From positions 1 to 25,824 of the IMG/VR virus record IMGVR_UViG_3300025769_000734: DNA of 25,824 nt; one strand, given 5' to 3'. Both the position numbers and the translations under genes were made by a program. This DNA comes from a virus. Below, in pieces: positions 1-12,755 of this stretch. The first letter of the stretch is position 1. Every line of letters begins with the position of its first letter. Below the pieces are notes generated by a model, which made no database searches, was not told the origin of the DNA, and saw only the letters and a program-made list of their open reading frames with translations.

Positions 1-1094
1 GTGCCAAGGTTGCCCTTGAACTGCTCTTCGATGGCCGCAGCCTTGTAGACCGCGTAGGCGGCTTCGAGGTCAGAAGCGCTGACGTCAGCCGGAGCGAGGT
101 AGCCCTTGGAGACTTCGCCGCTGCCGCCGGAGTTCAACTTGCCAATGGCGTTGGTGGAAGGGGAGCCGCCTTCTTGGGCGCGTCCCTTGACCTGACCAGC
201 GAAGTAGTCGGCACCGTCTCCGATGGCCTCTGGCGTGGAGCCGAGGTTGGCCTTGGAGATGCCGTCGAAGTGAGCGCGAGCCGCCATGGTGTCGACGCCC
301 TGAGACTTCAGGGTGTTTTCCATCCACGAGAGGTACTCGCTGGTGATGACGTCGGAGTAGTCGTTGGACTTGGCATACATGCCTTCCTTCTTGTCTTCTT
401 CAGCCATTTCCTTGCCTTCGTCCTTATCGGACTCGGGCTTGTCGTCTTTCTTGTCCTTCATGTCGGCAAAGGGATTTTCGCCCTTTTCCATGGCGTCAAG
501 TCGCCCGTTCAGCCGGTCAAGCACGCCGGAAAGGTCGTTCAGTACGTTGTCTTCGTTCATTGTGGTGTCCTCCTTCAGTATTCGGAATGTGGCCTCAGGA
601 TTGATGCCTTTTTCGCAAATGGTCACTTCGTGCAGTTCCAACTTCGAGATTTCGGTGTAGTCACCGTGACTGGCGTCGCTCTTGCGCATGCGCTTGAACG
701 CCTGTCCCCCGATGCTGAAGCCACGAAGAGCCCCCTTGCGAATCTCAGACGCGACTTCGCGCGCCTTCTCAATGTCGTCGCGCAACTTAATGACGACGAA
801 CATGCCGGCGTCGTCGACACCGGACTTCCAGACACGGCCATCCGAGTCCACGTAGGAAGGGATGACCTGTCCAACCTGAATGTTGGAGTGAGCGAGTTGC
901 ACGTTGCGGAATCCGTCCGCCTTCATGAAGCCGTCAAAAGCGTCACGGAGGGCACTGCGCGTGATGAGGTCGCCCTGCTTGTCCACCATTTCGACGGACG
1001 CGTAGCCAGCGATGACGAGGTCATCGGACGCCTTGAGAATGCTGATGCTCCCGCCGTGGTTGACGGCGGAGGTCCTCAGCGCGGCGGTGGCCAT
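1..1094 (-). CDS. HK97-type prohead serine protease with scaffold-like extension (partial)
   Basis: The frame starts at ATG 1094 and leaves the window at base 1 with 364 residues visible. It matches the HK97 gp4/peptidase U35 family: IAGYASVEMVDKQGDLI near the start, catalytic His69 in QLAHSN, Ser127 in LRGFSIGG and Glu156 in LHEVTI. It cleaves scaffold and capsid N-terminal regions during head maturation. After about residue 175 a helical, charged extension follows (NDLSGVLDRLNGRLDAMEKG, then Lys/Asp/Glu-rich), like the scaffold parts fused to some proteases. The remaining visible part (residues about 230-364) is also helical and acidic; it could be more scaffold or lead into a capsid protein. 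The end is outside the window. Confidence 0.88.
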   Translation of the reverse strand, partial: MATAALRTSAVNHGGSISILKASDDLVIAGYASVEMVDKQGDLITRSALRDAFDGFMKADGFRNVQLAHSNIQVGQVIPSYVDSDGRVWKSGVDDAGMFVVIKLRDDIEKAREVASEIRKGALRGFSIGGQAFKRMRKSDASHGDYTEISKLELHEVTICEKGINPEATFRILKEDTTMNEDNVLNDLSGVLDRLNGRLDAMEKGENPFADMKDKKDDKPESDKDEGKEMAEEDKKEGMYAKSNDYSDVITSEYLSWMENTLKSQGVDTMAARAHFDGISKANLGSTPEAIGDGADYFAGQVKGRAQEGGSPSTNAIGKLNSGGSGEVSKGYLAPADVSASDLEAAYAVYKAAAIEEQFKGNLG

Positions 1095-1109
1095 TGTCCT
1101 CACAACCTG

Positions 1110-1128
1110 TCGTCATTCTACTTAACTA
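1110..1128 (-). promoter_or_regulatory. Promoter-like box before the prohead protease
   Basis: The 31-base gap between the giant gene's stop and the protease start holds TTAAGTAG (1118-1125 on the minus strand), the same octamer as in the 21445-21586 spacer, flanked by a GGTAG in both places. It lies about 24 bases before the ATG at 1094, which would give a very short or absent leader. A separate strong promoter for the protease/capsid genes would make sense, since capsid protein is needed in large amounts. Confidence 0.35.
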
Positions 1129-4100
1129 CCTACGGAGGACGGCCTTGTCCTCTGTGATGTCCAAAACACCTGCTTCCGTAGGTACGCTCATACGCTTGGG
1201 AGCCTCGGAGTCCTCCGATTCTTCCTCAATGTCTTCGTCCTCTCCGGGGCGTTTTCGGTTGTCGTAGTCGGGCATAGTCTTCTCGTCGTGAAGATTGGTC
1301 GGACCCATGGGTGATTCAATGGGTGTTGCGTAGTCAAAGCCCAGACCCTTCGCGCCCGCGTTCGCAGCACCCACAGCACCAATGCTGCTCTTGAAGAGAC
1401 GGTCTACGAGTTCCAGACCTTTGACGAGCACCTTGGCCTTTTGACGGTCGTCCCACCACGAAGTGCCCTTGACCTTCTTGGGCTCAATGAGGGGTTCGGC
1501 CTCTTCTTCGGATTCATGCACCTCTTCCTTGATTTCGAGGTTGGCTTTGAGGAGTGCTCCTGCCACTGGCCCCCAGTAGGGGCGCTGACTCTCCGACAGA
1601 CGAATGACGTAGCGGTTGTCGGCCAAGGGGCTGTGCAACGTCCACATGCCGCCGGACTCTGTCGCCTTGTAGAGCACGTCGCCCTGAGGCATAACAACAC
1701 GAACGCCCGTGCTGGCTCGTTCGACTTCGCAAAGCCACTGCGGTCCAACTGACTTCGCCAACAGGCCCAGTGTTTCGCGGCTGACCAGAGGTTCGCCCTC
1801 GGCTTCGCCTTCAATCTCAGAGCCCATGATGGTGAACACGGGGTCCTCAACTGAGTTCTCAACGCGACTAACGTTGGCAACGTTGACGCGAACGTGGTCA
1901 CCTTCGTTGAACTTCTCAGAACTGTTGAACGCAGCACCCACATCCATGTATGTGTCGCCACCGGCCTCGACAGCGCGGTCCCCAATGGCCTCCTCCTGTG
2001 TGATGGGGCCAGTGCCAAGGCGATACGTGTAGGGGCCTGCGCCCCGTCGTTCGAGCACACGAAGCACTACGTCTTGTCCGGGGCGTAGCATGACCCACTT
2101 AGGATGGCGCATCTCACCGGCCATGTAGACTGACTTCGCGTCGCGCAGCAAGATGTTCTCGTGGTCCTTCTGCAACGACTCGACGGCCAACTTCAGACCT
2201 TCGTCGTCAGTCAAGCGCGTATCGCTGGCGCTCGGCGTGTGAATGTTGTCGATGCCCTCCATGCCGCCACGTAGAATCTTGATGCGGTCGTTGAGAGGCA
2301 CGTCGTGGACCTCCTTGCCGGCAAACTCAAGCACGTCGAAAATGTAGTAACTGTCTTCCAACTTGACGACATCCACCTTGTACTCGTGGTCGGTGACTTT
2401 CTGGAAGTTCTCTTTGTCCTCGTCGGACAGCGAGAACGTCGACGTGATGTCGTCGTCATCGTCCTTCTCAACAAAGCCTCGCTCGCCTTCCGGCATGTGC
2501 GAGACAATCCAGTCACCCGTGAAACCGCGCAGATGCTCCAAGTCCTCCAACTTGAAGATGCGGTGCATTGGCTGAAGCAAGGGGACCTTCGGACCCAACT
2601 CTTTGCGAAGAATGTCCGGGTTGGTCAGGTCGGCCAGTCCCAACTCAGACTTCACGACGTTCGTGCTCCCCTGATGACGCGTGAGCCCAGTTGACGTTGG
2701 CTTCGTATGAGCAGCCTGTCGTTCAAGCGTGTTGAGTGCTGCACGGGCACCAGCATGGTCAGGATGCTTCAGCATGTGCATCCATGCGGCAGGGGCGACG
2801 GCATTCCAAATGGTTTCCGTGGGCTGGACAAGGCGCATGGGGATGCCCTGCGCACTCGGCATAATGCTGACCTCACCGTCGAATCCGATGCGGAAATTGA
2901 AGTTCGGATGGAACAGGTCGCCGTATTCGTGCGCCAAGCCCGAAGAGTTGTACAGGCTGTGGACCGAGTGCCCGTGCGGACCCACCGCATCGACCGGCAC
3001 GGGTGCCCTACCGCGCTTCGTTTCCGTGACCGACGAAGCCGCCTCGACTTCGGGCAGGAAGGTGACGAGGCTGTCGAGATGCTGCTTGGTGTTCCAATAC
3101 TTGCGCTCACGCTGGTTGCCGCCGCCAGCAGGTTTCTTGGTCAGAGGTTCGGATTCACTACGCCGTGAGTCCGCGTTATACGCCTGTGTGAACTGCATGC
3201 CCAACTGCTGATTGCGCTCGTCTGCCTGATAGCCGATGGTGCGGTGAACGCGACCGACGTCCAGTTGCACGTCCATGGCAGCACGCTGCTTCCTCATCTT
3301 CTCGGCCTCGGCAGCGATGTCGCGGTCAGGATGCAGTTTCTCCATCAACTGGCGCACGGACATCACAGGTGCAGGCGGCAGGCCTGCAATCGCTCTTGGA
3401 AGAGCAGTCTCTGCAAGGTAGTCGATTGCGACCTGTTGACTGTGTCGAGAGTTGGGGTCTAAGCCAAGTCGCTCAAGCAATGGCTGTGCGTGATGCTTCA
3501 TTTCTGAAACGCGGGCTTCTTCTCCACGCGTGAGAAGAGGAGTGATAACGCCAGTCAAGTAATCGAAAGCCGTCTGACGGTGAATTGGATTTTTGGGGTC
3601 AATGCCGAGTTGTGCACACATATCGTCGACCAGTGACTTTTCGCTTCGGTCTCCCGGCAACTGGTACGGCTTACTTTCAGGGTGCTCTGCAATTTCAGAA
3701 GAGGTGAACTCGAACGGCTCTCCATGCTCATGCCCAAGGCTCTTGATTTCATGACCGAGGTCAGCGTGCCGCTTCTGTCCCACCTCATGCTCGGTCGTGC
3801 CCATGGTGTGGATGCCGTGCGTTCCATGAGGAGCAGCGTGAAGGAACTCGTTGCCCATGCGAGCCAGCATGCGCATGTTGGCCTCGACCGTTTCGTGAGG
3901 CAAGTTGGGGTTGAGGATATGGTCCCGCGTTTCGGGGTCCATGCGGTCGACGATGTGTCGCACGGCTTGACCGATGGCGTGGTCGTCAGCACGGAGCCGG
4001 TCGGCAAGAGTGTTGCGCTTCAAGCCTACCTTCTTCGTCGAGTCGCCCAGTGCCCCAGACATACGAGAGCCACCTTCAGACAGACCTGTTTCGAGGCGAG

Positions 4101-7026
4101 CCAACTCTTCGTTGAGTTCAGACATCTGGTCGCGGTAAGTCTGAAGTTGACTTCGCGTCGCACCTTCGCGCTGAGCCTGAGCCATCTCATTCTGCAGCGC
4201 TCCGACACGCTCAGCGAGCATGAAGTAACGCTCATGCTCTTCGGTCGCAGGCTGAGTCTCGCTGATGCGTGGCTCCAACTCGCCAGAGGGGGCGGAGCCC
4301 GCAGGGAAGTTGACGCCGTAGTTGACCATCACGCTGGCATCAGGGTCATCGTCCAGAGGTGCCTCGCCAAAGCGGTACATGCGGCGCTCGTGAGTCGAGT
4401 GCAATCGTTCTTTGCGACGAGCGTATTCTTCTTCCAACTCTTGCTGACGACCTTCAGGAGCGACGCGCATGCGCTGCTCGAACTCAGCGTCCAGTGCCGC
4501 CAGTTCGCGCTCAAGGTCTGCGGCGGCAGGTGGCTCATCCCGATGCTGCAACTCCTCCATCTGCGCGTCGTGGTCCGCCAGACTGGACGTAAGGCGACCG
4601 CGGTCATCGGTCAAATGGAAGACGTGCTGCTGCGGGTCCATGGGAGCACGAGCAAAACCCATCATGGTCGCAATGGCGTGATGATGCTGGCTGTGATGCT
4701 TGTCGAACGTCTCCTCGTTGTAGGCACCGCCTGCAACACCGAAGGGGTTCTGCCCAGTCAAATGTTCTGACTCTTGCCCAGTCCTTCGATTATGAGCCAG
4801 CGTTGCCGCCCGACCGTCGCCAGATTCGCGGGCATCATGGTATTCACGCGCCAGCGTGTTGTGGTATGCACCGTCAACCGTGGTCGCGTGGCGGTTATAG
4901 TGCGCGTTTTGGCCACCTGAGCCCTTGATGCGCGACGACACGGACACGTTGTGCGGGTTCATGGTCGAGCCCGCGTCAGTCACGTCGCCCACGTTTTGGA
5001 CGTTGACGACCTTCTTACCCTGCATCATGCGGAACAGTTGCGCCTCGCGCTGGCCAAACGGCCCAATGAAGGGAACCATCGAGGCCCCTTCATCTTCATG
5101 TCGTGCCATGATGCCGGTGCCTGTGCGAGAAAACATCAGGCTGTCTTCCTGCTTTCCGCGAAGCCCAGCGACGCCAGTCCGCGCTTCGACAGGGTTGAAC
5201 TGCGTCGTGGTCTGAGGGGCAGCCTCTTCACCATAGAACTCAGCCAGCATCCTCGCTTCTTCGTCCGCCTCCCCTTCGACCTCTTCCGGCTCAAACAACT
5301 TCGTGTGATGGTGGAGCAGGTTGAACAGTTCGTTGGGGCGCTTACCCATACCGCCACGCATCCACGGCTTCTTCCAGAACGTGGCCAACGTCGTGTGGTC
5401 ACCGTTCGCATAGCCGTAGTGTTCCGGGTCAACGTGCGTACCGAAATGGAAGATGCCATGGTTGGACGCCATGCGGGACGCCGAAGAAACCTGCTTGGCT
5501 GACTCGTCACGGCGACGGAAAATCTCGTCAATCTCGTCTTGTGTGAACACCTTGTCGGGTCGACTGTGGAACATACCGCTGTCCAGTCCCAAGTAATGAG
5601 GTGCGCCAGCCGGCAAAAGTTTCCGAGTTTCTGGGTCCACACCCAGCATCGCGGCCATCACCAAGTAGGAAGGTGCGGTGCCCGAATCAACGCTACCGTC
5701 AGCCTTCTCTTGGTTGAACAGCGGGCGATGAGTGACGCTAACGGTGCCGTCGGTGTGCTTGGTGATGTGAGGTGTTTCGCTGGCAGTGAGCAAGTCTTGA
5801 GGTCGAAGTTGATAGCCGTTCAACTGAGCGTGCTCCTGCAGACGCAGGTTGTACTCTTTGACGGCGCGCTCCCAAGCACTACCTTCCTTCCCTGCTTTTC
5901 CGTGCTCCATCATGGCGCTGAGGCCGTGCACCTTCTCGACGTACTCAGCCTTCTCAGGTAGGCGGATAGGTCGATTCATCACAGGCTCAGTTGGCATACC
6001 GACCGGGCGCACCCAGTGGTCGTAAAGGCCAGAAAAGCGTTGGTGGAAGTTGCGAACAAAGCGAGGTATCAGATTGGCCCCGTTGGCTATACCGGGCACC
6101 CTGAACGGCTGATTTGGGTCAGCAGCACCGTGTTCGCGCAAGTGCTCGTAGAAATCGTGCCGCTGCTCAGGCGTCAGCCACTCAAGTCCCATGAGGTAAT
6201 CCATCAGACCAAAGTCCTGTGACCACTCAGCCTTGCGCTGGTTCATGTGAGCGTCACGCTTTGCTTGCTCACCCTGCTGCACCGTGAGTTCGCCACGACC
6301 GACAGCATCGTCAATTCGACTGGACGCTTCTTGCCCTTGCCCTCTCGACCACTTCAGGTAATTCTCTTCGTAGAGAGCATGGTTGGTTGCGTACTCAGTG
6401 TCCAGTTCACCGTAGTGGTGAGCGTTGAGCATAAAGCGGTGGTCACCTTCACGGGCATGCGTTTCCCAATCGGCCTCACGCGCACTGTCGTGTTCGCTCT
6501 GACCACTGTTGTAGAAGTCAGCGACGTGCTCGTGGTAACGGTCGTGCAGTGGGTTGAACTGTGCAGAGCCCAGAGGGTCGTGCGTTCGGTAGGGGTCCTC
6601 GGCGTTGCCGTCGACCATCTCAAACTTACGACCAGTAAGCGATTGACCGGGCTCAGGAGGAACAACGCGCATCTCGTCATAAGACGGATTGTCGGCCAAG
6701 CCCATGCCGGCACCGTGACTCAGCGCATAGCCGACTTGCGACTGCGCAAGACCAGCGCTCACCATAGGACCTGCTTCGGCCTCAGCCTCCAGACTCACCG
6801 CGCCCTGTGTGCCGGTGGCCTGCGACTCATCCTCCTTGCGGATGACGGCGTGGAACATCTTGACGAGTGCATCATCGCCAGCGTCGAGGAGGTAGCCGTG
6901 GCGCTCTGCGTTCACGACTGCGAGGAAGAAGTCTGCGCCGGCATCGGCCTTCCCAATGCCGTCGAGCAGTGAAGCGGTGAAGGTCTGCCTTGCCCTGTCG
7001 AGGGAATCGAGGGGACCGTCTCGCAT
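1126..7026 (-). CDS. Giant 1966-aa head-region protein with inactive DNA-ligase-like C-terminal domain
   Basis: The ATG at 7026 has GGTGATG five bases before. Most of the protein is unrecognised, hydrophilic and His-rich (for example KHHSQHHHAIA near 776-787), with coiled coils at about 835-880 and 935-985 and a repeated LGxDP...DYL unit at 1140-1159 and 1187-1204. Residues about 1480-1740 follow the order of ATP-dependent DNA ligases: GDWIVSHMPEGERGFVEK (motif I region), YYIFDVLEFAGKEV then PLNDRIKIL (III), ENILLRDAKSVY and RHPKWVMLRPG (IV/V), then an OB-like part. The catalytic Lys of KxDGxR is Met1511 and the later lysines are Arg or Met, so adenylation is not expected. It lies between portal and protease, a place where minor capsid or ejected proteins are found. 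Confidence 0.75.
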   Translation of the reverse strand: MRDGPLDSLDRARQTFTASLLDGIGKADAGADFFLAVVNAERHGYLLDAGDDALVKMFHAVIRKEDESQATGTQGAVSLEAEAEAGPMVSAGLAQSQVGYALSHGAGMGLADNPSYDEMRVVPPEPGQSLTGRKFEMVDGNAEDPYRTHDPLGSAQFNPLHDRYHEHVADFYNSGQSEHDSAREADWETHAREGDHRFMLNAHHYGELDTEYATNHALYEENYLKWSRGQGQEASSRIDDAVGRGELTVQQGEQAKRDAHMNQRKAEWSQDFGLMDYLMGLEWLTPEQRHDFYEHLREHGAADPNQPFRVPGIANGANLIPRFVRNFHQRFSGLYDHWVRPVGMPTEPVMNRPIRLPEKAEYVEKVHGLSAMMEHGKAGKEGSAWERAVKEYNLRLQEHAQLNGYQLRPQDLLTASETPHITKHTDGTVSVTHRPLFNQEKADGSVDSGTAPSYLVMAAMLGVDPETRKLLPAGAPHYLGLDSGMFHSRPDKVFTQDEIDEIFRRRDESAKQVSSASRMASNHGIFHFGTHVDPEHYGYANGDHTTLATFWKKPWMRGGMGKRPNELFNLLHHHTKLFEPEEVEGEADEEARMLAEFYGEEAAPQTTTQFNPVEARTGVAGLRGKQEDSLMFSRTGTGIMARHEDEGASMVPFIGPFGQREAQLFRMMQGKKVVNVQNVGDVTDAGSTMNPHNVSVSSRIKGSGGQNAHYNRHATTVDGAYHNTLAREYHDARESGDGRAATLAHNRRTGQESEHLTGQNPFGVAGGAYNEETFDKHHSQHHHAIATMMGFARAPMDPQQHVFHLTDDRGRLTSSLADHDAQMEELQHRDEPPAAADLERELAALDAEFEQRMRVAPEGRQQELEEEYARRKERLHSTHERRMYRFGEAPLDDDPDASVMVNYGVNFPAGSAPSGELEPRISETQPATEEHERYFMLAERVGALQNEMAQAQREGATRSQLQTYRDQMSELNEELARLETGLSEGGSRMSGALGDSTKKVGLKRNTLADRLRADDHAIGQAVRHIVDRMDPETRDHILNPNLPHETVEANMRMLARMGNEFLHAAPHGTHGIHTMGTTEHEVGQKRHADLGHEIKSLGHEHGEPFEFTSSEIAEHPESKPYQLPGDRSEKSLVDDMCAQLGIDPKNPIHRQTAFDYLTGVITPLLTRGEEARVSEMKHHAQPLLERLGLDPNSRHSQQVAIDYLAETALPRAIAGLPPAPVMSVRQLMEKLHPDRDIAAEAEKMRKQRAAMDVQLDVGRVHRTIGYQADERNQQLGMQFTQAYNADSRRSESEPLTKKPAGGGNQRERKYWNTKQHLDSLVTFLPEVEAASSVTETKRGRAPVPVDAVGPHGHSVHSLYNSSGLAHEYGDLFHPNFNFRIGFDGEVSIMPSAQGIPMRLVQPTETIWNAVAPAAWMHMLKHPDHAGARAALNTLERQAAHTKPTSTGLTRHQGSTNVVKSELGLADLTNPDILRKELGPKVPLLQPMHRIFKLEDLEHLRGFTGDWIVSHMPEGERGFVEKDDDDDITSTFSLSDEDKENFQKVTDHEYKVDVVKLEDSYYIFDVLEFAGKEVHDVPLNDRIKILRGGMEGIDNIHTPSASDTRLTDDEGLKLAVESLQKDHENILLRDAKSVYMAGEMRHPKWVMLRPGQDVVLRVLERRGAGPYTYRLGTGPITQEEAIGDRAVEAGGDTYMDVGAAFNSSEKFNEGDHVRVNVANVSRVENSVEDPVFTIMGSEIEGEAEGEPLVSRETLGLLAKSVGPQWLCEVERASTGVRVVMPQGDVLYKATESGGMWTLHSPLADNRYVIRLSESQRPYWGPVAGALLKANLEIKEEVHESEEEAEPLIEPKKVKGTSWWDDRQKAKVLVKGLELVDRLFKSSIGAVGAANAGAKGLGFDYATPIESPMGPTNLHDEKTMPDYDNRKRPGEDEDIEEESEDSEAPKRMSVPTEAGVLDITEDKAVLRR

Positions 7027-8204: not shown

Positions 8205-9941
8205 TCAGGCCCCCCGAGGGCGGCGAGCATCAAGGATGCTTTGACCGGCCTGTTCGACGCCTCCCATAGGAGCGCCTCGTTGCTGAACGCTGGAGAAAGG
8301 AGCGCCTGCACCCATGCTGGTGCGGTTCTGTGGACTGGCGGGACCACGGTTCCTCATACCGAAGCCCTCGCCGCCGGGATTGGCCATGCCGGGAACCCGT
8401 GCCTGACGCCCCATTTGGGCGGCGAGTTGCGGCGGGATGTTTCGGCTGGGCAAGGCTCCGGGCGTACCCATGCCCCCGCCCATCTGCATGCCGCCCATGG
8501 GCTGACCTTGAGGCGGAGGCTGAGCGCCCGGCTCAGGTTGCTTGTAGATGAAGCGAATGTCGCGGCTGGCATCTTCGACGAGCGTAGGCTGGTAGCCCAT
8601 CATCATCATACGCTGTGCGATGTTGACTTCCATCTCATCACGGCGAAGGCGAGTAACCTCGTCTTCTTCTTCGTTGGGATAGAGGGTCAACTTCCAGTCG
8701 CTGACGTCCATTTGCTCGACCATGCGCGGGAACAGATGTTCGGTGTAGACCTTGTGACCGAACTCGACTGCGCGATTGGTGACCAGAATCTGCATACCTT
8801 CGTTGTTCAGACCGCCAGACTTTCCGGTGTCCATCATGAACACGTTGGACACGCCGTAGAATGCAGCAATGCGCTGACGCATCTCATCACGTGCAGGGAT
8901 GTATTGCATCTCCTCCAACGAATCCATCAACTTGACCCAGTTCACACCACCCTTTCCGTTGCCTTCTGTCGCAATCTTGGGGATGTAGTGCGGGTCACGC
9001 TCCAACTTCTCATCTGTCGCCTTCCAAAACGACTTCATGGATTCGAGGTTCTCAGTGGTGATGCTCAGGATGCCGCGAGGGATGCGGCGCTTCGAGTAAG
9101 CCGTGTACATGTAATTGTCCATGGCGGTCAGCGTCATGGCCTGTCGCCAGAGCGTCGAGACGGGACTGCGCCCGTAGAGTTTCGACGGCTGGTATTTGCT
9201 GACGTGAATGACTTCGCCTTTGAGGTAATACTGCGTCTTGCCGCTTCCAGCCGTGTTGACGTGATGCACGTCTTCCATCTCAGTGCCGCACGTCGGACAG
9301 AACTTGTCGTCCTCCGAGTAAGCCTTGACCTCGGTGCGGTGAACGGGGCAAACGCGGAACCGCCCACCACGAACGCCGCGCTTGTCGGCAATGATGCGCA
9401 TGAAGATAGGGTCGCCGCGCACGACTTCCTTGATGCGGTAGAAGGCCATTTCCTTCGTCTCGGGGTCGATGAAGTATTCTTTGATGAGGACGAGGAAGGC
9501 GTCGTCGGTGATGTTGAGGTCGTACTCAATCTCGCGCAGCACATCCATGAACGTCTGCTCCATGGAATTGCGCTGGTCAAGCAGCCACCTCGGGTAGACC
9601 AGTTGGTCAGGCTCAGGGTCGCGCACTTCTCCACCACATTCAGTGCACATTTCGACATCATGCTGATGCTCTTTGTCGCACTCCACACACTTCTTGTGGA
9701 ACTTCTTCTCCCAGCGATAACCACGACGGAAGATTTCCTGCTGAAGCGTACTAAGCACCGTGCGAAGAATGAGATTCTCGTTGGCCACAGCATAGAGTGC
9801 GGGGATGGTGATACCTTGCACAAGGACAGGCTCTTGGATGCCCGTGGTCCACAGAGGCATCTGGGGTTCAGGCGTCGTCCTACGACGGAAAGGTGCGCTC
9901 ACAGATTCGAGCAAACGGCCGACGCGACTTTTCTCTGCCAT
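8205..9941 (-). CDS. Portal protein with two inserted zinc ribbons
   Basis: The ATG at 9941 (TGATG overlap, GGAGGG upstream) gives 578 residues. The core shows portal features: KLYGRSPVSTLWRQA (about 246-260), a long helical stem region, and an IAAFYGVSNVFMM segment typical of phage portals (HK97/SPP1-like). It forms the ring at one head vertex through which DNA enters and leaves and on which the terminase docks. Two zinc ribbons are inserted: C85-x2-C88 with C99-x2-C102, and C198-x2-H201 with C215-x2-C218. These are not part of the usual portal fold as I know it. The C-terminal 120 residues are Gly/Met/Pro/Gln-rich and probably disordered. Confidence 0.88.
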   Translation of the reverse strand: MAEKSRVGRLLESVSAPFRRRTTPEPQMPLWTTGIQEPVLVQGITIPALYAVANENLILRTVLSTLQQEIFRRGYRWEKKFHKKCVECDKEHQHDVEMCTECGGEVRDPEPDQLVYPRWLLDQRNSMEQTFMDVLREIEYDLNITDDAFLVLIKEYFIDPETKEMAFYRIKEVVRGDPIFMRIIADKRGVRGGRFRVCPVHRTEVKAYSEDDKFCPTCGTEMEDVHHVNTAGSGKTQYYLKGEVIHVSKYQPSKLYGRSPVSTLWRQAMTLTAMDNYMYTAYSKRRIPRGILSITTENLESMKSFWKATDEKLERDPHYIPKIATEGNGKGGVNWVKLMDSLEEMQYIPARDEMRQRIAAFYGVSNVFMMDTGKSGGLNNEGMQILVTNRAVEFGHKVYTEHLFPRMVEQMDVSDWKLTLYPNEEEDEVTRLRRDEMEVNIAQRMMMMGYQPTLVEDASRDIRFIYKQPEPGAQPPPQGQPMGGMQMGGGMGTPGALPSRNIPPQLAAQMGRQARVPGMANPGGEGFGMRNRGPASPQNRTSMGAGAPFSSVQQRGAPMGGVEQAGQSILDARRPRGA

Positions 9942-11248
9942 CACAGACCCTCCGCCCAACTCATGACCGTATCACGGTCGACTCCCCATTCTCGCAACGA
10001 GTCCTCACCTTTGGCAGTTCCGTCTCTGTTCGAGAACTGCACAAAGCGCTTCAACTGCGTTTTTCGCACGGGGTCCTTCTCACCAATGTAAGCCATCACA
10101 GCCTTTGCCTGCATGTCTTTCATGCGCAAGTGAGGGGTGATGCCGTCCAACAACTTCGCAAGGTCGTCCTTCGCGTAGAAACTGACGCGATGCTGACTCC
10201 GCTGAGTGTCCGAGTAGACCTTCTGGTCCAATTGCAGGATGCCGGCTCCAATGTTCTTGTGCAACTGTTCGCAGTGCATGCGCCCTCGGTCGCCCGTAGC
10301 GATGAAGCCGGCACGCGGTTCGCCGCGCTCAGTGATGGTGATGTAGCCGTCAGCGTCAAGGAAGCCCGCGGCGTAGGCCCATGGGTCCTTGAGAATCAGA
10401 CCGTCACGGGTCATGGAAATGAACTCGCCTCGACGATGGCCCTTGACGATGTTGACCTCCTCACCATACATGTTGAGCAACTTGGACAAACGACCAGCCG
10501 TGATGCGACTGACGCCTTTCTCGACGAGGTTGCTGGTGATGGCCCGAGCCGTCATGGCCCCCTTCTCGTCAATCTCAGCCTTGGCCATGTGCATCCACTT
10601 CTGCTGCTCCTTGGTCAGAGAGTCAAATTGGTGCAGCGCAGTGCGCCACATCTTGCGAGCATCTTGCTTCTGCTGCATGGCTCCAACCCACGCCTGTCGC
10701 TCCTCTTCACCCCAGACGTCAGCGAACTCATCCAACTTCTCCAGCGCATCCTCGGCCGCCTCCCAGACGTTGCAGGCTCGAACGAGACTGGACTTGCGGG
10801 TGTTGCCGAACAAGCGCAACGAGCGCAGGTCCTTGTTGGACAGCCCCATCTTGCGCATGGTGTCTGCGTGCGGTACGGCCCAATCGAAGAGGTGTAGCGT
10901 AGCCTCGACTTCTGTTCCCTTGAGTGTACGAATACCCTGAATCAGCGCATCAATTTCGTCTCTGTCGTCTTTCATCACCCGACGCGCCTTACGCAAATCT
11001 CGAATGATGGACGATGCACTCTTACCGAGGCGGTCCTCGAACCAGCCTTCGCCAGTCGGTGAAAAGGGGGCATACTGTGGTGTAGGTGCAGGCTCTCCCG
11101 TGACGATGACGGTCTCCGAAGCAATGGCTTTGGCAATGTCGCCGTCGACCAGAGGGTGTGCGGTCAGGCTGGATGCGATGGTCGACAGAAGGTCGTGACC
11201 CATGTCGATGTGTTGGGTTGGACCCCCTACGCTCAGACTCGGCCACAT
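9941..11248 (-). CDS. Winged-helix plus LAGLIDADG-domain protein
   Basis: This 435-residue protein lies between terL and the portal gene; GAGGGAG precedes its ATG. Residues about 1-225 are mostly helical and unrecognised. Residues about 226-285 look like a winged helix (ARAITSNLVEKGVSRITAGR then a strand pair). Residues 294-301 read AGFLDADG, a LAGLIDADG motif with its acidic residue, followed by YITITERG and a pattern fitting one LAGLIDADG fold to about residue 400. A single motif means it would act as a dimer, as homing endonucleases of this type do. No intron or intein surrounds it and the frame is continuous with the long N-terminal part. It may be a domesticated nuclease working with the terminase, like HNH proteins beside terminases in other phages (inference). 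Confidence 0.75.
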   Translation of the reverse strand: MWPSLSVGGPTQHIDMGHDLLSTIASSLTAHPLVDGDIAKAIASETVIVTGEPAPTPQYAPFSPTGEGWFEDRLGKSASSIIRDLRKARRVMKDDRDEIDALIQGIRTLKGTEVEATLHLFDWAVPHADTMRKMGLSNKDLRSLRLFGNTRKSSLVRACNVWEAAEDALEKLDEFADVWGEEERQAWVGAMQQKQDARKMWRTALHQFDSLTKEQQKWMHMAKAEIDEKGAMTARAITSNLVEKGVSRITAGRLSKLLNMYGEEVNIVKGHRRGEFISMTRDGLILKDPWAYAAGFLDADGYITITERGEPRAGFIATGDRGRMHCEQLHKNIGAGILQLDQKVYSDTQRSQHRVSFYAKDDLAKLLDGITPHLRMKDMQAKAVMAYIGEKDPVRKTQLKRFVQFSNRDGTAKGEDSLREWGVDRDTVMSWAEGL

Positions 11249-11276: not shown

Positions 11277-12755
11277 TCATACCGTGAACCACGCGCCAGC
11301 GACCCTGCGAGAGGGCACGTCACCGAACCAGTCGTCAACTCCGTCGAGGTAATCGTCGAGCATTACGATGCTGCCCTTGAACTCCTTGGTCGCCCAATTG
11401 GCCAGTGCGAGGCTGACGGCCAAGTCGTCGTGCGAACCCACGGACTCCATGCGCCCGTTCTTCTGCATACCGAACCGACTCAGTTCTGTCTCAAGCGTGC
11501 GCGTGAACTCCTTGCTCCGCTCATCGCCCCACGGGGTCTTGATGTGGCCCTGCTCAAACGCCATGAGCAGCGACATGAACATGCTCTCCTTCTTCTGGCG
11601 CGTCGTCATGAACGTCTTGACGGGGATGTCTTCGCGCATGTCGCGCAACTCTGCCTCGAACATGCGCTGGAAGTTGTTGCCTTCCAACTCGATGAGGTCG
11701 GGTTGGAAGCGGTTGTTGAGCATGATGATGTGACGCTTCTGCGCCGTGCTGTTCAGCCCCTTCTGATGGACGACGTGCACGATTTCCTTTCGCTCGCTGC
11801 CCGGAGGCATGCGCATGACGGTCATGGCCGTGTAGTCGGCGTTCGAGTCGCTGGCGATGGCGGGGTCCCAGCCGATGAAGTGCTGACCAAACAGGCCACT
11901 GGCTTCGCCTTCCTCGTCGTACTCGTTCTCGGCTCTGTCCATCAGGAACAATTCTGAGTCGCGCGCCTTCTCCAGCAGCGTCATCGGGAACATGCTCGAC
12001 ATGTCGTGAATCGGCTCGCAGAGGTATTCACGTGCGAACTTGATGGCGGGCATGGACTCCTCACGCTGCTTGAGGGCGTCAAGCGGCCATCGGTTTGGCC
12101 AGAGCGGTTCGCCGTTGGGCAGAATCGCCGGATAGGTCTCGACGGTGAACGTGTCCTTGTCCTCCAACTCAGCATACAGGTCGTTGTACGAGAAAGGTGT
12201 GCCGACCATCATCAGTCGACCCGTGTGGTGCAACACAGGAAGCAGAACGGTGTAGAACCAGTCAGCCGCACGCTGCAGTTCAGAACTGGTCGTGCCCCAC
12301 AGAATGTCGTCGCAGACGACCACGTCGGGGTGGAAACCACGGGTTGCACCGCCCACGGACTTGGCCATGATACGGCTGCCGTTGGTGAACTCGAAGTAGG
12401 ACTTAGCCCACGGCTTGCCCGCAGGCTTCAGACCCTTGAGGATGTCCGAGGACTCAATGTTGTTGCGAATGAACCGCATGTGTTCCAGCGTCTGCTCCAG
12501 CGAGTGGGAGAAAATCATGACGTGCGTGTTGGGCTTGAACGCCGCCAACCAGAGTGCGTAGGACATGAAAAACACGGACTTGCCGTGGTCACGGCTCGCT
12601 TTCACGCAGTAGTAGCGGTGTTCGTTCAAGCCCTTGAGCCAGTCTTCGTGATGAGCGGACAACTCGAACTCCAGAATGTCCGTGAAGAAGTACGCGAAGG
12701 ACTTCTTGGACATCTGCGTGTCCATGTCGTGAATGAGGTTGTTGACGTCAGCCAC
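11277..12755 (-). CDS. terL: Terminase large subunit (ATPase and nuclease)
   Basis: This 492-residue protein is the DNA-packaging motor: its ATPase drives DNA into the prohead through the portal and its nuclease cuts the concatemer. The ATPase part shows a terminase-type Walker A, ASRDHGKS (53-60), a Walker B, VVVCDD (145-150), and the coupling motif MMVGTPFSYND (182-192). The RNase H-like nuclease shows D297 in IGWDPA, an acidic LIELEGNNFQ stretch (355-363) and SHDDLAVSLA (441-450). Length is normal for the family. It starts at GTG 12755 with GGTGA just upstream and overlaps nothing. The gene after it encodes a LAGLIDADG protein, then the portal. No intein is present. Confidence 0.95.
   Translation of the reverse strand: MADVNNLIHDMDTQMSKKSFAYFFTDILEFELSAHHEDWLKGLNEHRYYCVKASRDHGKSVFFMSYALWLAAFKPNTHVMIFSHSLEQTLEHMRFIRNNIESSDILKGLKPAGKPWAKSYFEFTNGSRIMAKSVGGATRGFHPDVVVCDDILWGTTSSELQRAADWFYTVLLPVLHHTGRLMMVGTPFSYNDLYAELEDKDTFTVETYPAILPNGEPLWPNRWPLDALKQREESMPAIKFAREYLCEPIHDMSSMFPMTLLEKARDSELFLMDRAENEYDEEGEASGLFGQHFIGWDPAIASDSNADYTAMTVMRMPPGSERKEIVHVVHQKGLNSTAQKRHIIMLNNRFQPDLIELEGNNFQRMFEAELRDMREDIPVKTFMTTRQKKESMFMSLLMAFEQGHIKTPWGDERSKEFTRTLETELSRFGMQKNGRMESVGSHDDLAVSLALANWATKEFKGSIVMLDDYLDGVDDWFGDVPSRRVAGAWFTV

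Follow-up and report, generated by a model that had tools for sequence, protein, structure and literature searches.

A ligase-type domain without catalytic residues in a giant head-module protein of putative magrovirus-type archaeal viruses

INTRODUCTION

Magrovirales have been described with a characteristic gene set (PMC10768690, PMC12999244), likewise given in the accessible text of PMC10160649, and are recognized by the combination of PolB, a clamp loader, a chaperonin, an HMG-CoA lyase, an HK97-type head module and a genome of 90 to 110 kb. Their ligase has been counted with the replication machinery (PMC10768690, PMC12999244), where the accessible text of PMC10160649 places it as well. 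In the group A magrovirus contig_156409, according to the part of PMC7318539 that is accessible, a gene named "ATP-dependent DNA ligase" adjoins the prohead protease. The Druskaviridae have a large protein (HVTV-1 gp115, HCTV-1 gp109) with a Zeta toxin domain and, in HVTV-1, an ADP-ribosyltransferase domain between the portal and protease genes, and the role of their zeta toxins is stated as unknown in the accessible part of PMC4284463. Archaeal LigI-type DNA ligases of the PF01068 family, such as those of Pyrococcus furiosus (2cfm) and Thermococcus sibiricus (4eq5), combine an adenylation domain with an OB fold.

Here, we describe what appears to be a dead DNA ligase, under strong selection and fused into a giant head-module protein, that occurs across a large ocean virus group. 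No description of an inactive ligase within a head protein was found in the literature searched. New here are the finding that catalytic residues have been lost throughout the family despite strong selection, the dispensable OB domain, the presence of a true ligase alongside in one genome and a probable misannotation in the literature. The domain also offers a testable case of an enzyme fold that may have been recruited for genome packaging or delivery.

RESULTS AND DISCUSSION

Head module and virus group

The stretch of DNA analyzed (the window) comprises the 25,824 nucleotides of IMG/VR virus record IMGVR_UViG_3300025769_000734 and contains the following head-module genes.

3..1103, minus strand, prohead protease, the next gene downstream of P0001, running off the window (PF04586, 37.7 bits)
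1126..7026, minus strand, giant head-module protein P0001 of 1966 aa, with a pseudo-ligase domain toward the C-terminal end
8205..9959, minus strand, portal protein, upstream of P0001 (phrog_18178, E 7.5e-67; PF04860)
11277..12755, minus strand, terminase large subunit (phrog_38, E 1.7e-62)

Among relatives, a portal gene was found upstream of the giant frame on the same strand in 90/90 loci with enough flank, and a prohead protease gene directly downstream in 25/25, both counts being of loci, some of which share contigs. These counts support the location between portal and protease given in an earlier note made from the letters of the window. The nearest proteins within the phages collection were those of Druskaviridae for both neighbors, with identities of 31 to 33% for the protease and about 30 to 33% for the portal. 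No relatives of P0001 were found in cellular genomes (two scans) or among phage records.

One of the relatives, G001 (100,986 bases), encodes PolB, a group II chaperonin (Cpn60_TCP1) and HMGL-like (HMG-CoA-lyase-like), ERCC4 and AAA clamp-loader-like genes, and shows the whole Magrovirales trait set listed above. Judging from gene content, the window and its relatives are putative magrovirus-type archaeal virus genomes, the window itself (a 25.8-kb head-module piece) being assigned via its relatives.

Ligase-type fold

The C-terminal part of P0001 was divided into three regions.

2593..4026, minus strand, residues 1001 to 1478, region upstream of the domain, mostly helical (AlphaFold2 model)
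2077..2592, minus strand, residues 1479 to 1650, ligase-type nucleotidyltransferase core (PF01068, AlphaFold2 model and Foldseek/VIA)
1747..2076, minus strand, residues 1651 to 1760 approximately, OB-fold-like domain (VIA alignment to 2cfm)

Whole P0001 matched the Pfam family PF01068 (DNA_ligase_A_M) over residues 1540 to 1645 with 31.0 bits (E 2.5e-7; cut-off, 26.2), and the isolated domain reached 34.5 bits. All 27 members of the relatives' alignment A2 matched the same family at E ≤ 1, and 26 of them also matched the LigI-type model TIGR00574 (dnl1). When compared to the PDB, the family profile found a Thermococcus DNA ligase at E 4e-5 and the profile of one subclade did so at E 1.8e-6. 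The AlphaFold2 model of residues 1479 to 1831 (m7df4757672a8, 27 sequences) had a mean pLDDT of 79.8, with blocks at about 80 to 94 over most of the core. Ligases ranked top in the Foldseek search with this model (best E 3.8e-11), and VIA-align superposed it on the P. furiosus ligase 2cfm with a Z of 19.2 over 265 residues (4.4 Å). Since this alignment spans model residues 1 to 289, both the adenylation domain and the OB domain are matched. The top viral match, in BFVD, was an unnamed protein of 827 residues (A0A516LT18, E 2.1e-22, 21% identity). A chance resemblance to ligases was rejected on the PF01068 scores of the window and of 27/27 relatives, together with the Foldseek and VIA results.

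As judged from profiles and the predicted model, residues 1479 to 1760 are a LigI-type ATP-dependent DNA ligase fold, adenylation domain plus OB, captured into the giant protein. The earlier note had recognized the motif order and spacing of ATP-dependent ligases, followed by an "OB-like tail," at 1807-2589, which covers approximately residues 1480 to 1740. The motifs were indeed found in the minus-strand open reading frame 1126-7026, the predicted model aligned to the archaeal ligase through the OB domain, and the outcome named there as refuting, a predicted structure with no nucleotidyltransferase or OB fold or the lack of a ligase match, was not obtained, so that the proposed fold stands.

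The rest of the giant protein yielded little. The model of residues 1001 to 1490 had a mean pLDDT of 80.9, but its best PDB matches, at E 2.4 with Foldseek and Z 3.6 with VIA, did not exceed chance, and a helical DNA-binding domain of the ligase type was not recognized upstream of the core. Such a domain in front of the core is a property of larger ligases only. Among 14 giant-protein members, Pfam gave PF01068 in 13 (the lone miss is likely L089, shortened by its locus) and otherwise scattered weak matches, and PHROGs gave one tape-measure match in a single member.

The OB domain was missing in 41/171 distinct relatives among the matches listed. The loss is clean (in L099, L231, L233 and others of L227 to L278), with 59 to 63 residues after HPKW versus 142 to 172 in the others; 11 of the remaining 130 relatives escaped this length pattern but have a full-length OB stretch.

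Loss of catalytic residues

The 171 distinct domain sequences compared are a sample, as the scans gave the best 80 of 251 and the best 80 of 227 relatives. They were drawn from 354 open reading frame matches, 347 of them with the motif I region, and many of these are overlapping loci of shared contigs. The degenerate motifs of the window are given below, numbered I, III, IV and V after the ligase motifs.

2479..2502, minus strand, residues 1509 to 1516, degenerate motif I, SHMPEGER, with Met1511 where ligases have their catalytic Lys
2365..2373, minus strand, residues 1552 to 1554, degenerate motif III, DVV, with Val1554 in place of Glu
2083..2160, minus strand, residues 1623 to 1648, degenerate motifs IV and V with the family signature RDxKSxYxxGExxHPKW

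The position of the catalytic Lys was occupied, among the matches listed, by W (69), M (59), Y (14), H (12), F (6), Q (6) or L (5), and by Lys in 0/171, which answers the question of the earlier note whether any homologue had kept it. None of these 171 sequences, which came from five viral scans (two by alignment profile) and include distant relatives, had a canonical motif I Lys. Among the matches listed, the Glu of motif III was found in 0/167 relatives; the Lys of motif IV was Arg in 164/165 (Arg1628 in the window) and Lys in one; the Glu of motif IV, present as Glu1623 in the window, was kept in only 42/166; and the first Lys of the motif V Lys-x-Lys, which reads Met1646-x-Arg1648 in the window, was seen in 0/165.

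The register of motif I was obtained from two alignments. HMMER placed the SKWYDGKR of relatives without gaps on the EIKYDGAR of Thermococcus ligases, with the catalytic Lys opposite the W that corresponds to Met1511 of the window; motif I itself has a low score (approximately 5 bits), the segment of motifs III to V being what carries the match. MAFFT put the catalytic Lys of a separate viral ligase (QRKFDGVR, from genome G046, see below) in the identical register, with the caveats that it misplaced motif I of the T7 ligase and that the match between the family profile and the G046 ligase was poor and shifted in register. Both alignments agree with the earlier reading of the M of SHMPEGER, Met1511, as the residue replacing the nucleophilic Lys. 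The companion claim, that the later motif lysines are missing, is correct for motif IV (Arg1628) and motif V (Met1646-x-Arg1648) but not for Lys1643 of PKW, which is kept and invariant, although it is none of the catalytic lysines.

A Lys adjacent to the catalytic place was present in 84/171 sequences among the matches listed (75 one position before and 9 one position after) and absent from either side in the other 87. A Lys one position off breaks the K-x-D-G spacing. K-x-[DEN]-G strings near motif I, found in 13 sequences, were rejected as candidates; all lie in the loop after motif I. With these replacements, the domain would be able neither to take AMP from ATP nor to seal nicks.

Distribution and selection

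The search for PF01068 covered 58 distinct IMG/VR records, all found via relatives (18 + 19 + 6 + 15), 27 of them of at least 80 kb. The match within the giant frame, which is approximately 1730 to 2150 aa long, was present in 58/58. A second PF01068 frame was absent in 57/58, no genome being certified complete. The sole record with an additional, canonical ligase was G046 (102,093 bases), in which L377:2642-3778 encodes a protein of 379 aa with KFDG and an OB domain. Neither NAD ligase (PF01653) nor RNA ligase (PF09414) was found in any of 18 records, and the two records of Druskaviridae and the methanogen virus vir335 gave no ligase domain. The pseudo-ligase is not the replication ligase, as G046 encodes both.

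Among the matches listed, Trp1506, Gly1514 and Arg1516 were invariant in 171/171, and the D, S, Y, G, E, P, K and W of RDxKSxYxxGExxHPKW were found in 165/165. Across 30 diverse relatives, mean column conservation was approximately 0.55 to 0.76 in the ligase-like part versus 0.1 to 0.6 in most of the remaining protein; the extreme C terminus (residues 1876 to 1925) was also conserved (0.62 to 0.68). The dN/dS values by the Nei-Gojobori method, a crude estimate with some dS above 1, were 0.011 to 0.053 for residues 1483 to 1650 versus 0.12 to 0.29 for residues 1 to 1450. Among 11 pairs, the core had the lower value in all 10 for which both could be computed; dS reached saturation in both regions of one pair and, in another pair, in the OB domain only. 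The domain with the strongest conservation and the lowest dN/dS is being maintained and is not decaying. The ligase-like domain is probably a pseudoenzyme, maintained under strong purifying selection, and not a relic.

The dS of the two regions differed severalfold in some pairs (L075/L079, 2.3 for residues 1 to 1450 and 0.29 for residues 1483 to 1650), as if the C-terminal part had been exchanged by recombination.

Possible role

We favor, with some reserve, a ligase-derived and catalytically dead domain of a head protein that has been kept as a binding module, docking a nucleic acid or a nucleotide-like ligand. The captured ligase domain has lost its catalytic machinery in every relative among the matches listed and has a new set of invariant residues, and the core of the adenylation domain would dock its ligand via the surface around RDxKSxYxxGExxHPKW. 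This ligand could be a nucleic acid, either the genome end or duplex DNA close to the portal, or else a nucleotide-like molecule, and docking inside the virion head may serve in holding, ordering or releasing the packaged genome, while most of these viruses would rely on the host ligase. The gene position suggests that P0001 is present in the virion, and the binding module would then belong to a head protein near the portal.

In ligases, the region of motifs IV and V holds nucleotide and DNA, and the location of invariant residues in what was once this region favors DNA or nucleotide docking. DNA binding is weakened by the lack of OB in 41/171 of the matches listed and by the fact that no helical DNA-binding domain was recognized upstream, and the domain is unlikely to serve throughout the family as a complete ligase-type DNA clamp. 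Compared to the archaeal LigI-type ligases, the P0001 family has kept the fold, the motif order and spacing, the Gly and Arg of motif I (both invariant) and the Y..G...KW of motifs IV and V. It differs in having other residues for the catalytic Lys, the Glu of motif III and the Lys of motifs IV and V, in some 1450 residues of unrelated protein fused to the domain and, in one subclade, in the loss of OB. Another, more distant likeness is to the m3G-cap-binding domain of Snurportin-1 (PF21974), matched weakly by 7/27 members at E ≤ 1 (best, 0.0061) and through PDB chains at E 0.15 to 0.4. This domain has a nucleotidyltransferase-like fold and binds the cap without catalysis, providing a precedent for a dead nucleotidyltransferase acting as a binding module, although Snurportin-1 is a eukaryotic RNA import factor and the likeness is only of fold and fate.

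It is possible, if less probable, that the ligase fold is a structural scaffold, a rigid domain for protein-protein docking (for example, with portal or protease) that touches neither DNA nor nucleotide. The dispensable OB domain and the freedom of pocket position 1511 to vary among W, M, Y, H, F, Q and L would fit this, and a conserved surface could equally be a protein interface. However, for a random docking surface, the coincidence of the invariant residues with the former nucleotide and DNA region of motifs IV and V would be fortuitous.

Delivery into the cell together with the genome was also considered. That the dead ligase is a virion-borne decoy, ejected with the genome to sit on ends or nicks or to displace the host ligase until takeover, seems unlikely to us, and we are a little more doubtful still of the broader version in which the giant protein is an injected payload whose pseudo-ligase occupies DNA ends and nicks or competes with the host ligase early in infection. 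A parallel exists in Druskaviridae, whose giants are, like P0001, large proteins with an enzyme-type domain lying between related portal and protease genes, with Zeta_toxin (plus an ADP-ribosyltransferase in HVTV-1) where P0001 has the ligase fold; moreover, the annotation of T4 Alt describes an enzyme carried in the capsid and entering along with the DNA. Yet P0001 and the Druskaviridae proteins have no detectable sequence relation, the family profile giving no credible match to HVTV-1 gp113 to gp116 or HCTV-1 gp106 to gp109, so that the parallel is one of synteny only, and a toxin-type domain was found in 0/14 magrovirus-type members scanned. By analogy, the comparison suggests that the portal-to-protease slot of archaeal tailed viruses may collect domains of enzyme type, which might enter the cell together with the genome.

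We consider it very unlikely that the domain is still an enzyme, using a neighboring Lys or Arg1628 as the nucleophile or sealing only pre-adenylated DNA. Ligases lacking this Lys retain, in vitro, the ability to seal nicks that are already adenylated, nearly half of the matches listed (84/171) have a Lys one residue off, and both the Gly and Arg of motif I and the KW of motif V never vary; nevertheless, the motif III Glu and the motif V Lys have been lost as well, and 87 sequences are without any adjacent Lys. Finally, a ligase gene that was fused by accident and is now decaying would explain the loss of the catalytic motifs but is contradicted by the strongest purifying selection within the protein and by the presence of the domain in 58/58 records, and we give it hardly any credence.

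Returning to the binding module that we favor, its place in a head protein bears on how the magrovirus ligase has been described. The published ligase is counted with the replication machinery, whereas the domain found here is part of a head-module protein and has degenerate catalytic motifs. The "ligase" of contig_156409 stands beside the prohead protease, at least in the accessible part of its description, as P0001 does in the window, from which we infer that it is the pseudo-ligase. At least some of the published magrovirus "ATP-dependent DNA ligase" genes may thus be the giant pseudo-ligase gene, and an annotation of the pseudo-ligase as a ligase in the literature is probable. If so, the view that the magrovirus replisome is nearly self-sufficient would have to be revised, and the 57/58 records without another ligase of the PF01068 family would depend on that of the host.

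Other features of the head module genes

HVTV-1 gp115 (L224:22117-26058), annotated solely as a zeta toxin, also has an ADP-ribosyltransferase exoenzyme domain at residues 1148 to 1297 (Pfam, E 1.4e-8). In the window, a protein of 435 aa lies between terminase and portal (9941-11248, minus strand). Its C-terminal part (residues 290 to 390 approximately) has an HNH/homing endonuclease PHROG match (E 3.7e-6) and, by eye, resembles a LAGLIDADG homing endonuclease (GFLDADGYI), while its N-terminal part resembles, also by eye, the open reading frame of G001 in the equivalent slot. Two CxxC pairs resembling zinc ribbons (Pfam Zn_ribbon_3 and DZR) occur in the portal of the window (8205-9959, minus strand), which is unusual for portals, and the first of these pairs is also present in the portal of G001.
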